Shown piece after piece: positions 4,038 through 39,312 of a DNA stretch of 64,000 bases. How positions within the stretch are numbered: the stretch's first letter is position 1; every line of letters starts with the position of its first letter. The position numbers and the translations under genes are program-made. The stretch lies in assembly GCA_018266615.1 (NCBI GenBank), contig JAFEAB010000102.1:1-64000 (forward strand), read 5' to 3'. The notes beneath the pieces were generated by a model. That model worked only from the letters and a program-made list of their open reading frames with translations, was not told where the DNA came from and made no database searches. Origin of the DNA: Bacteroidota bacterium. Lineage in GTDB: Bacteria; Bacteroidota; Bacteroidia; Chitinophagales; Chitinophagaceae.

Positions 4038-7000
4038 TTGGCATTACCCCATATCATCAAGCATATTTATAATAATGGCGCCGAAGAGGTTATCCGAAGA
4101 GGAAAAAAAATTAATCAACTCGGATTTGTTGAACTGATAGAACACGATGAACTGACCAGTACGGTTGTTTTTCGGGTGAAGGACGACAATTACAGCACAT
4201 TTTATAAAGTGTACATTCAAAAATATACCGATCCCAAATCGATGACGTTGCGGTGTGGCTGCCCGTATAATTTGGGCGATATATGCAGGCACGAAGCGGC
4301 GGCTCTTTTCCGGCTGCAGGATATGGTAGATAAAAACCTCCTGCTTAATGACGCCATTCAGTTTAATCAGCTTCATACAGTAGCGAAGATGAAATACATC
4401 GATCTTAAAATGATCAAGATGCTTTCCTCTCCGTCAATTTATGAGGAAGCCGAAAAATTGTTACGCACTTCAAAAGCCAACATCCTCCATGCGGCCAACG
4501 AACGGGTAGAAGCCGAGGTAGTTGCTTACGGCGATACATACCCGCTGGTTATCCAAAAAAATGATGAGCGGAATTTTGACACTTCCTGCACCTGTGCCGA
4601 ATCCATGCATCCCTTATGCGAGCACAAAGTGATGCTCTTTCTGCAAATTCTGAATGCGTATGGAGCCAATTATTTCGATAGTATCCGTAATTGGGATAAA
4701 GAAAAGAGCAAACTTCTCCAGCTTTATGGCTATAACCTGGCCGATGACCTTACCGGCAAATTTGAGTTTACGTATAAGGAGGGGAAACCGTTTTTAAAGG
4801 TACTCGATCCCTCCATCAAGCGCGTGGCAGGTATTGTTTCAACGCCGCCCCAACCGGCGAAACCCGAACCTGCTATGCAGGAAGTTGACATTGAAGAAGA
4901 AGAACGACCGGCAAAACAATTGGGGATCGTATTTAATTTTAATTATAAAATATACCCCGGATTTAAAATAGATGCCATCCAGGGGGAGGCCAATGATGAC
5001 TTTACCGATTTTTTAGGAAAGGTAGAAACATTGGATCTTACCAAATTTGTAAATACTGAATTATTTTCTGAAGAAGACCGGCAAATTTTCCAACAGGTTA
5101 GGAAAATGCAAAATACGGAGGTGAATAAATACCTCAATCGAAATTCCCCTTTTAGCGGGATATGGGAAAATATCATCCACAGCGAAGAAGATGATTTACC
5201 GGAAGAAACCAAATCGCTAATTGCAGAGTATCTGCAACCGAAATTGCGAAAGCTTTTTGAGGAAAAGGAGAATAGGCCCTTTGTTTATGCGTTGCCGGCA
5301 GGAAAGCAGTTCCGGACGGACAATCTCGAGCCCATATTGTTGGATGCAAATCTGCTCACGCCGCAGTTTAGAGTGGAAGCCGTGGATTCAGGATTTTCAA
5401 TGGGTTGTTTTGTGAAGTTAAAGGGAAAGGCGGTTGAACTCAACGAAAACGAAGCCGAAAGCAGCATCATCATGCTTTACGACCACGTATTATATCTATG
5501 GAAACAACCGGAAGATGTAATGCATGTTGGAAGTTTATTGCAGGCAGGGAAGCTCAATTTTAGTACTGCCGAATGGAATGAACAAATGCAGAAACGGATC
5601 CTGCCGTTAACCAGGGAGTATCATGTGGAGTTTGACCGGTCGTTGGTGAAGGAAGTAAAGACCGATAATCCGGAGATTAAGGTTCAGTTGCAGGAGAAGG
5701 GAGACTACCTTGTTTTTCAACCGGTGTTCACCTATCATGGGATTGATGTAAAGGGGAATACAGGCAAAACTATTATGATCCCGGAAGGAAATAAAATCAC
5801 CATCATACACCGCAACCGGGAAGTTGAGGATGAGTTCCTTCAAAAACTGGAAAACCTGCATTCAATGTTTACCCGGCAGCCGGAAACAGGGAGCCTGATA
5901 TTAAAAGGAGTAGATGTTTTAAAGAACAATTGGTTCTTTCTCTTTATTGATGCCATGAAGGAAATGAAGATGCCGGTATATGGGTTTGAGGCATTACGAA
6001 ACTTCCGGTTTAATACGGCCCGGCCCAATACCCATATTCATGTGAGCAGTGGCTTGGATTGGTTTGATGCCAAGGTTGAAATTGAATTTGGAGAACAGCG
6101 TGTAGGCATTGCTGATATTAAACGGGCCCTGGCAGGGAAGCAATCCTTTGTACAATTGGGGGATGGGACGCTGGGGATACTCCCGGATGAATGGCTGAAA
6201 CGATATGCCCTCCTCTTTAAAGTGGGGGAAGGCAAGAGTGATAAGCTCCGGTTATCGAAGTACCACATGAGTGTTATCGACGATCTGTACGAAAATCGGG
6301 ACGCTGCAGAATTGAGCTTTGCCCTGGATGAAAAATTTGAACGCCTTCGCGAGTTTAAAGATATCCCGGAAATACCGGCGCCACAAACGTTGCATGGAGT
6401 CTTACGCCCCTACCAGGTTTCGGGTTTCCAATGGCTCAGTTATTTGAACGATGTTGGCTGGGGTGGGATCCTTGCAGATGATATGGGGCTGGGTAAAACC
6501 GTTCAGGCGCTTACCATGCTCGATCATTACCGAAACCATACAGGCGCCTTGCAGGCCATTGTTATTTGCCCAACCACGCTTATTTATAACTGGCAAAACG
6601 AAGTGAAAAAATTCACTCCTCAACTGAATTCTGTAATCCATCATGGAAACGCAAGGGCCAGGAATCCACTCCAGTTTGAAGGAATAAATATTATTATTAC
6701 CACGTATGGCACCCTGCGCAGCGATATCCAGATGCTGGTGAAGATGAATTTCGATTTTATTATCCTGGATGAGAGCCAGGCCATCAAGAACCCCTCTTCC
6801 AAAGTTACCAAAGCGGCCAGCCTGCTGAAAGGAAAAAATCGGATATGCATGAGCGGTACCCCGCTTCAGAATAACACCTTTGATATTTTTGCCCAAATGA
6901 ATTTCCTGAACCCCGGGCTGCTGGGCAGCGTCGAGTTTTTTAGAAATGAATTTGCCACCCCCATTGATAAGTTTGGAGAACAGGATCAGAAAGAACACCT

Positions 7001-9640: not shown

Positions 9641-10837
9641 ATGGGCTTTAAACGGTTGTTTTGGCTGTTAATATATTTGTTTCCGGTATATGTTTCTCTG
9701 GGGCAAACCCGTTCCGATAGTTCCAATTTGGCAAAACTCCTTACCAGCTTCAGTTTTCGGCAGTTTAGCGGGGGGGTGATGGTTATCCGGGGCTGCATTG
9801 AAAATATTCCCGACTCTTTCAATTTTGTATTAGATACAGGAAGTGGGGGTATTTCTCTCGACTCTTCCACTTGTGCCCAATATCAAATCCTGAACCGGCC
9901 CACCGATACGTTAATAAAGGGAATTGCCGGGGTTAGGAAAGTAAGCTTTGCATTCGATCATACCCTCCGGTTGCCGGGATTAACGGTACCGCACCTCAAT
10001 TTCCATATTAATAATTACGAGGTGCTTAGCAGTGTGTATGGCGAAAAGATTGACGGGATCATTGGGTACAGTTTCTTCCGGCGGTTTATTGTAGAGGTAA
10101 ATTTCGACAGCCTCCGTATTAATGTTTACCAGCCTGGCAAGATGGCATATCCCCAGCACGGCTATTTACTGCACCCTAATTTTACTTCTATTCCCATTGA
10201 AGATATCCGGTTTAGGGATGACCGGAGGAATGATTTTCCTTTTTATATTGATAGCGGAGCCGGTCTTTGTTTTCTGTTGTCGGAACAATTGGTTGCTGAT
10301 AGCGCTATTTTAAAAAAGAAAAGGAAGCCAATTGTAACTCAGGCCGAGGGTATGGGAGGGCGGTTGCGTATGCGGCTTACCGTTATTAAGTCACTAAAAC
10401 TGGGCCCTTACCGGTTTAATAAAGTCCCTGTTTTTATTTACGATGATGTGAATAATATTTTAAATTACCCTGCTGTGGGAGGCGTGATAGGGAATGATTT
10501 ACTCCGGCGGTTTAATGTAATCTATAATTACCCACTAAAAGAAATCCATCTTCAGCCCAACTCTCATTTTACAGACGAGTTTGATTATGCTTATACGGGG
10601 CTTGGTATTTACCAGATAGAAGATAAGGTATTGGTATTGGATGTGATTACGGGGTCCCCGGCCGAGAAGGCAGGGATCCGCGTAAACGATGAAATCATAG
10701 GAATTAATAACCTGATCCATCAGCATATACAAGCCTACAAAAATGCACTCCAGGTAAAAAACCAACGGGTAACGATTATTATTTTACGGGAAGGTAAACT
10801 GATGGAAATAAAAATGAAAACCGGCAGTATTCTTTGA
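9641..10837 (+). CDS. Secreted or periplasmic aspartyl protease with C-terminal PDZ domain
   Basis: A retropepsin/pepsin-like protease of the Bacteroidota type. The first catalytic-type motif is FVLDTGSGGISLD and the second is FYIDSGAGLCFLL, each an Asp-Ser/Thr-Gly. A PDZ domain fills the last 90 or so residues (VITGSPAEKAGIRVNDEIIGIN). I place the start at ATG 9641 because it begins a clear signal peptide (MGFKRLFWLLIYLFPVYVSL, then GQ). The frame can be extended to an ATG at 9593, but that would place 16 extra residues over the mqnC promoter. The protein is likely exported and acts in the envelope; its substrate is unknown. Confidence 0.85.
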   Translation: MGFKRLFWLLIYLFPVYVSLGQTRSDSSNLAKLLTSFSFRQFSGGVMVIRGCIENIPDSFNFVLDTGSGGISLDSSTCAQYQILNRPTDTLIKGIAGVRKVSFAFDHTLRLPGLTVPHLNFHINNYEVLSSVYGEKIDGIIGYSFFRRFIVEVNFDSLRINVYQPGKMAYPQHGYLLHPNFTSIPIEDIRFRDDRRNDFPFYIDSGAGLCFLLSEQLVADSAILKKKRKPIVTQAEGMGGRLRMRLTVIKSLKLGPYRFNKVPVFIYDDVNNILNYPAVGGVIGNDLLRRFNVIYNYPLKEIHLQPNSHFTDEFDYAYTGLGIYQIEDKVLVLDVITGSPAEKAGIRVNDEIIGINNLIHQHIQAYKNALQVKNQRVTIIILREGKLMEIKMKTGSIL

Positions 10838-38490: not shown

Positions 38491-38519
38491 AAAAAAACCT
38501 TCCGGATTTCCGGAAGGTT
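38491..38519 (-). terminator. Terminator of the tRNA-like RNA
   Basis: A perfect 11-bp inverted repeat (38496-38506 with 38509-38519) is followed, on the minus strand, by seven T (38497-38491). It ends the RNA gene at 38524 and isolates it from trmB. Confidence 0.9.
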
Positions 38520-38523
38520 GATG

Positions 38524-38693
38524 CTGTAGGGGAAGGGTTCGAACCTTCACGGGGCAGTTAGCTATAGCACAAAGTTCAGTGGTCGACCCTGGTCGCCGGG
38601 TATTGCTACCCAACGGCTCTATGCTACGTTTATCCTGAATTCCCCACCCCCGAGACAAGGGGGCATGTCTGCCAAAAATTTCATCACCCCACA
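38524..38693 (-). ncRNA. tRNA-like RNA: class II tRNA body with about 98-nt extra arm
   Basis: On the minus strand the ends pair as a 7-bp acceptor, TGTGGGG (38693-38687) with CCCTACA (38531-38525), containing one G-T pair. TG at positions 8-9 follows, then a 3-bp D stem (ATG/CAT) with a D loop holding A14, A15, GG and A21. The anticodon arm is CCCCC/GGGGG with loop TTGTCTC (anticodon GTC by position). The T arm is GAAGG-TTCGAAC-CCTTC, joined directly to the acceptor. The D arm, the 13-22 mismatch and T44-G45 are like tRNA-Leu; the discriminator is G (38524). CCA is not encoded. Positions 38646-38549 form the extra arm, closed by GGGG/CCCC and holding a hairpin GGGTA-GCAA-TACCC. A -7 box lies upstream and a terminator downstream. 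Confidence 0.65.
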
Positions 38694-38730: not shown

Positions 38731-38838
38731 AAGAATACGCACTATATTTAAAAATAATTCAACAAAAATTTTGAAAATATAGAAAATATTCAAATATTTG
38801 CTAAAATTATTTAAACTGATTTAAAAACAAGCTTTGAA

Positions 38839-39312
38839 ATGAGTGCCAAATTAAATCTCGACAAACTAGACCTGCAAATTATTGAGGCAATGATGGCCGA
38901 TGCCGAAATTTCTTATGCCGAATTGGGAAAGAAATTATTTGTGAGTGGGGGCACTATCCATGTTCGGATAAAAAAATTGCAGGAGTTTAATATAGTGAAA
39001 GGGACGCGGCTAAGCGTGGATCTTAAAATGTTAGGATATGATATTACGGCTTTTGTTGGGATCTATCTCGAGAAAAGCTCACTATACGATTCTGTTGCCA
39101 AAGAACTGATGGAAATTCCACAGATTGTAAGGTTAAATTACATCACCGGGAATTACAGCATGTTTATTGAGGTGGTATGCAAAGATATTGCCCAACTGCG
39201 ATATGTGTTGCATGATGAGTTGCAAAAGATAAAAGGGATCGATCGTACCGAAACTTTTATATCCCTGGAAGAAGGTTTTAGCCGGAATGTGCCGGTAGCG
39301 CCGGTGGGGTAA
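38839..39312 (+). CDS. Lrp/AsnC-family transcriptional regulator
   Basis: The 157-residue protein has an N-terminal winged helix-turn-helix (LDLQIIEAMMADAEISYAELGKKLFVSGGTIHVRIKKLQE) and a C-terminal RAM/AsnC ligand domain (FVGIYLEKSSLYDSVAKELMEIP, then GNYSMFIEVVCKD). Regulators of this class respond to amino acids or related metabolites. Its target is not evident; it is divergent from the tRNA-like RNA gene, with about 145 bp between. Confidence 0.92.
   Translation: MSAKLNLDKLDLQIIEAMMADAEISYAELGKKLFVSGGTIHVRIKKLQEFNIVKGTRLSVDLKMLGYDITAFVGIYLEKSSLYDSVAKELMEIPQIVRLNYITGNYSMFIEVVCKDIAQLRYVLHDELQKIKGIDRTETFISLEEGFSRNVPVAPVG

Follow-up and report, generated by a model that had tools for sequence, protein, structure and literature searches.

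The window, the whole 64,000-nucleotide stretch of DNA analysed here, encodes a tRNA-like RNA on the minus strand at 38524..38693, with position 1 at 38693 and the discriminator G73 at 38524. It scores 143.6 bits with the covariance model R1, and its fold is supported by covariation in 49 members of its family. The 7-bp acceptor stem joins TGTGGGG (38687..38693), in which U1, G2 and U3 are invariant, to CCCTACA (38525..38531), in which A70, C71 and A72 are invariant. After T8 comes the D arm (38665..38684), with a 3-bp stem (ATG/CAT), A14/A15 and the conserved GG in a loop that reads GGCA; in other members the stem is GTG/CAC, ACG/CGT, TTG/CAA or GCG/CGC. The anticodon arm, CCCCC-TTGTCTC-GGGGG (38647..38663), has a 5-bp stem, G34, U35 and C36 at 38656-38654, U37, and C38 at 38652. 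Between it and the T arm, GAAGG-TTCGAAC-CCTTC (38532..38548), lies an extra arm of 98 nt (38549..38646), all on the minus strand. A closing helix, GGGG (38645-38642)/CCCC (38554-38551), encloses a second helix, CAG (38637-38635)/CTG (38557-38555), and an internal loop, GATAAA (38634-38629)/CTAA (38561-38558), beyond which the arm continues as a branched helix. The minimum free energy (MFE) of the RNA is 3.0 sd below that of shuffles, and the D arm is not drawn by MFE alone. The initial annotation had proposed a class II body with a giant structured arm of about 98 nt closed by GGGG/CCCC, a GTC (Asp) anticodon, T37, G73 and a strong terminator, and our analysis bears this out, with every arm at its place on the minus strand.

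The terminator, at 38496..38519 on the minus strand, is of the intrinsic type and lies directly 3' of the RNA. The region upstream of the RNA is enriched in the promoter-like words TAGATTTG and AGTTCTTA. At positions -4 to -1, A(-4) and A(-2) are ~90% conserved across all members and G almost never occurs, which might reflect either a start site or an RNase P leader. At the 3' end, the DNA encodes C74 (38523..38523, minus strand), which is present in 123/123 members, and lacks C75 and A76. Most tRNA genes of the host genome likewise stop at an encoded N73-C74 without CA, so completion of the CCA end is likely for this RNA as well.

Divergent from the RNA, on the plus strand at 38839..39312, lies a gene for a regulator of the Lrp/AsnC family, with Pfam AsnC_trans_reg and HTH_AsnC-type domains. 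The protein scores 155 bits with the AsnC model and 62 bits with the next one; this is under the NCBIfam AsnC equivalog cut-off (227 bits) and far above Lrp and the other models, and we therefore call it AsnC-like on the strength of its sequence. Between the two genes, the palindrome CAAATATTTG (38791..38800) is a candidate operator, and 79 of 124 asnC-RNA intergenic regions contain AAATATTT, where about 11 would be expected. A divergent asnC-like gene lies about 150 bp upstream of the RNA in 138/197 loci and, by comparison of coordinates, adjoins it in 30 of 40 genomes carrying the RNA, the other class (see below) included. No fixed partner enzyme was found near the RNA in the 197 loci, where asnC is the sole constant neighbour. 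The association with trmB on the opposite side, to which the initial annotation had drawn attention, proved to be a minority context (27/197 loci).

In E. coli, asnC lies next to asnA and is divergent from it. AsnC activates asnA there, and asparagine damps the activation (PMC8707732). The locus studied here resembles that pair in that a regulator of AsnC type, which would control asparagine supply, is divergent from its putative target, but the RNA occupies the place of asnA. In six related genomes lacking the RNA, no asparagine synthetase was found beside asnC. Upstream of asnC in three genomes of family f23 without the RNA (L325-L327), the site is empty, but a downstream element there (about TAGGTTTATAATTGGTTA), with an inverted repeat after it, resembles the sequence 3' of the RNA in L250.

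A widespread RNA family with a covarying cloverleaf

In an alignment of 49 diverse members, 95% of the pair cells are paired and 23 pairs have changed on both sides. Doubly changed cells number 223, against 62 ± 11 in shuffles and 27-49 when the structure is slid along the alignment, and pairing is complete (100%) in the acceptor, D, anticodon, arm-closing and T helices. The cloverleaf is thus conserved far beyond chance, and the covariation test in homologues that the initial annotation had named is strongly passed.

A DNA search of 99 relatives recovered copies 69-91% identical in most genomes of the same genus and, in other families of the order, matches that were shorter. Among named genomes, a pattern scan matched at least 120 stretches; those listed come from Chitinophaga, Ferruginibacter, Niabella, Terrimonas, Saprospiraceae, Neolewinella, Phaeodactylibacter, Marivirga, Dyadobacter, Emticicia, Flammeovirga, Fulvivirga and others, with five tandem copies in Phaeodactylibacter and three in Marivirga among the matches listed. 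Model R1 was built from the 49-member alignment. Across 395 Bacteroidota genomes it gives family members at least 89 bits and its next-best matches, ordinary short tRNAs, at most 67 bits, which leaves a clear gap, and it finds members in seven families, one of which (f68) belongs to another class. The family extends over Chitinophagales, Saprospiraceae, Cytophagales, one family of another class, and phages. Genomes carry from one to several copies. All members have an extra arm of 39-124 nt and share the conserved internal loop, and the long forms carry an additional conserved branched arm. Short (about 110-125 nt) and long copies adjoin in several genomes. Tandem arrays of three to five copies occur in Phaeodactylibacter, Flammeovirga, Marivirga and family f68 (L093:312-1052, L129:3688-4630, L092:1976-2621, L243, L244).

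This large family is undescribed and unannotated. A literature search of open-licence papers found no published description of the RNA. In the whole window, ARAGORN reported neither a tmRNA nor an ordinary tRNA, and Rfam gave nothing at gathering; weak matches (SpF41 and others) fall below that threshold. ARAGORN did not match the RNA when introns were allowed either, its few intron calls having unrelated anticodons. A search of the whole genome with RF00005 gave no match at the locus. The RNA shares with tmRNA a tRNA-like end and a long additional RNA domain. However, it has a D stem, which covaries, a full anticodon arm, Asp rather than Ala identity and no tag reading frame, and the earlier view that it is not a tmRNA holds. 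Like the class II tRNA(Leu), it has a 3-bp D stem, a GGYA-type D loop and a long extra arm, but it differs in its GUC anticodon, G73, U1-A72, the length of the extra region and the conserved loop within it. Known translation tRNAs with long variable arms and a non-canonical cloverleaf are similar in these two respects, but have extended acceptor or anticodon stems, whereas the present RNA keeps a 7-bp acceptor and a 5-bp T stem and has far longer arms.

Identity marks at conserved positions

Conservation was counted in 99 unique members collected without using the anticodon; sets that forced G73 (the first extraction) or GUC-N-C (the genome pattern) were left out. U1-A72, G2-C71, U3-A70, U35, C36, C38 and the D-loop GGCA are invariant (99/99). 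G34, and with it the GUC anticodon, occurs in 96/99, and G73 in every intact match. Position 33 is U in 86 members, A in 7, C in 5 and G in 1, and position 37 is U in 86, C in 8 and G in 5, never A. The three members without G34 (L246:4072-4186, L247:4432-4546 and L238:1501-1610) are the sole ones with C34 or U34. AsnA is present in one of the genomes concerned (G295), so the function may be relaxing there.

The RNA has the GUC anticodon, G73 and C38 of a decoding tRNA(Asp). It does not keep U33 or a purine at 37, and its giant arm replaces the 4-5 nt variable loop of class I; these features make use by the ribosome unlikely. Its first pair is U1-A72, where tRNA(Asp) has G1-C72. The GUC anticodon, the tandem copies and the carriage by phages would suit an odd-armed decoding tRNA(Asp) or a decoy that tRNA-cleaving toxins would attack. 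Both ideas leave U1-A72, GatB and AsnC unexplained, U33 is not kept and 37 is never A, and the genus also has a normal tRNA-Asp, so that we find both scarcely credible. The RNA is not the cell's sole tRNA-Asp, since most genomes of the genus have a normal gene; in the window's own assembly, tRNA-Asp appears only as a 33-bp partial match, probably because of an assembly gap. Of the roles considered in the initial annotation, the tRNA-like nature stands, but an ordinary decoding tRNA does not, nor does a one-off insert, because every member has an arm of 39-124 nt. An unusual tRNA or a regulatory RNA, as suggested there, overlooks the links to AsnC, GatCAB and the asparagine synthetases.

Strong determinants of aspartate identity are G73, G34, U35, C36 and C38, and amidation of Asp-tRNA(Asn) needs U1-A72; in tRNA(Asp), G1-C72 and U20a block amidation (PMC9976931). 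All members have U1-A72, and the GGCA loop, without U20a, is equally constant (99/99 for each). The RNA thus unites the marks for AspRS with those for GatCAB, without the anti-determinants, and has given up positions usual in decoding. Two positions count against a role that involves charging by AspRS and amidation: where the bacterial Asp set has G10, the family usually has A, and G1-C72, an aid to E. coli AspRS, is absent.

The same charging and amidation marks would be found in an RNA charged with Asp or Asn for non-ribosomal transfer, for example to lipid, peptidoglycan or a peptide. Aminoacyl-tRNA has known non-ribosomal uses. However, no constant transferase gene adjoins the RNA, the constant neighbour being the AsnC-like regulator, and such a role is very improbable.

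Co-occurrence with GatB and asparagine synthetases

We compared 80 genomes, 40 of them with the RNA, scoring GatCAB by GatB. GatB is present in 40/40 genomes with the RNA, and AsnRS in 79 of the 80. GlnRS is absent from six genomes with the RNA and, among those of the class without the RNA, only from the two that have GatB. In genomes of the same class with both AsnRS and GlnRS, GatB accompanies the RNA in 34/34 and is found in 0/26 lacking it; these genomes are related and the counts are not phylogenetically independent, so that Fisher values overstate the significance, though losses agree inside families f1 and f23. AsnA or an E. coli-type AsnB (TIGR01536 matches on model positions 1 to about 385) occurs in 3/37 genomes with the RNA, compared to 24/28 genomes of the class without it. 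Neither AsnA nor AsnB exceeds the cut-off in five genomes carrying the RNA (G279, G319, G378, G398 and G449).

Within the genus, GatB is found in 27/29 genomes with the RNA and 4/13 without, and in the rest of the order in 11/11 and 11/19, respectively, G070 counting among the former with a damaged copy. In one genome with the RNA but without detectable GatB (G043, L283:2746-2917), A/C mismatches at 6-67 and in the arm-closing helix, together with a changed G26, break helices that are always paired in other members, as if this RNA were decaying. In G052, which has the RNA, GatB was not found in a fragmented assembly. In G013 (L281:2698-5720), gatB lies 1.4 kb from the RNA on the opposite strand.

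Two observations weigh against the RNA as a route to asparagine. GatB persists in genomes that lack the RNA, 11 in the rest of the order and four within the genus, counted without the GlnRS filter, and long AsnB-like amidotransferases are kept in most genomes that carry the RNA. The genome of the window has four of the latter, three in glycan clusters and one not, judged from the neighbouring reading frames.

Proposed role in asparagine supply

We propose, with a probability of roughly two in three, that this RNA takes no part in decoding and serves as a dedicated aminoacyl carrier, which AspRS and GatCAB use to make asparagine under AsnC-type control. Transcription would run opposite to asnC, and the transcript would be trimmed as tRNAs are and provided with CCA. 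AspRS would load it with aspartate via G73, G34, U35, C36, C38 and G2-C71, and GatCAB would recognise U1-A72 and turn the bound Asp into Asn. The asparagine would then be released to feed AsnRS and other uses, with the AsnC-like regulator tuning production to asparagine. Release as free asparagine is the least secure of these steps.

The closest known process is tRNA-dependent asparagine synthesis, in which a non-discriminating AspRS and GatCAB act on tRNA(Asn) in Deinococcus, Thermus and Bdellovibrio (PMC4206432). Both would employ AspRS and then GatCAB on an RNA with U1-A72, in organisms with AsnRS, GlnRS, GatCAB and few or no asparagine synthetases. Genera with AsnRS, GlnRS and GatCAB and no asparagine synthetase include Bacteroidetes, and synthesis on tRNA(Asn) has been proposed for them (PMC4206432). 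Here, instead, a separate RNA with a giant extra arm, no sign of decoding and an AsnC-like neighbour would serve as an alternative or additional substrate to tRNA(Asn). Because this RNA has an Asp anticodon, an ordinary discriminating AspRS would suffice, and our model does not require a non-discriminating one.

With identical partners, the RNA might also bind AspRS and GatCAB and form the core of a transamidosome for tRNA(Asn) charged by a non-discriminating AspRS, without being a substrate itself. In favour of such a scaffold, U1-A72 is present in tRNA(Asn) in the genome of the window, and a precedent has been proposed for Bdellovibrio (PMC4206432). However, the conservation of G73, the first acceptor pairs and the encoded C74 suggests that the 3' end is functional, which makes a scaffold quite unlikely.

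If the RNA carries asparagine as proposed, it would be, to our knowledge, the first RNA dedicated to carrying an amino acid through biosynthesis outside decoding. The puzzle of why many Bacteroidota keep GatCAB despite having AsnRS and GlnRS, to which PMC4206432 drew attention, would also be explained. We are inclined to regard the family as a new class of RNA, derived from tRNA but not used in decoding. On this carrier an amino acid would be made and then set free, and in several orders of Bacteroidota, whose phages carry it as well, the RNA would stand in for asparagine synthetase. The family is of interest for being widespread, in phages too, yet unannotated, and for the structured RNA domain added to a tRNA fold.

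In IMG/VR, 31 viral contigs (L294-L324) carry the RNA (for example L320:6955-7098 and L309:4923-5069) in 17 distinct sequences, all with GUC loops and with the same charging and amidation marks. The copies sit among genes for terminase, portal, helicase and lysis proteins, some beside phage tRNAs, and are not accompanied by asnC. The plasmid and INPHARED phage collections gave no match. The absence of asnC from phages bears on the possibility that the RNA is a sensor or regulator of asparagine, which, charged and amidated, would control genes or titrate AspRS or GatCAB and supply no bulk asparagine. The AsnC-like neighbour, the long conserved extra arm and the presence of one to several copies per genome would all suit a sensor, but phage copies lack asnC, and most genomes with the RNA have neither AsnA nor an E. 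coli-type AsnB and need a source of asparagine. We thus consider a sensor rather unlikely, and favour the carrier. Further tRNA-like sequences of the Leu type (AGTCAGG...CCTGACTA), whose D or anticodon region contains inserts, occur on viral contigs at L304:4343-4504, 4588-4706 and 9980-10112 (minus strand) and at L324:5951-6099 (plus strand).
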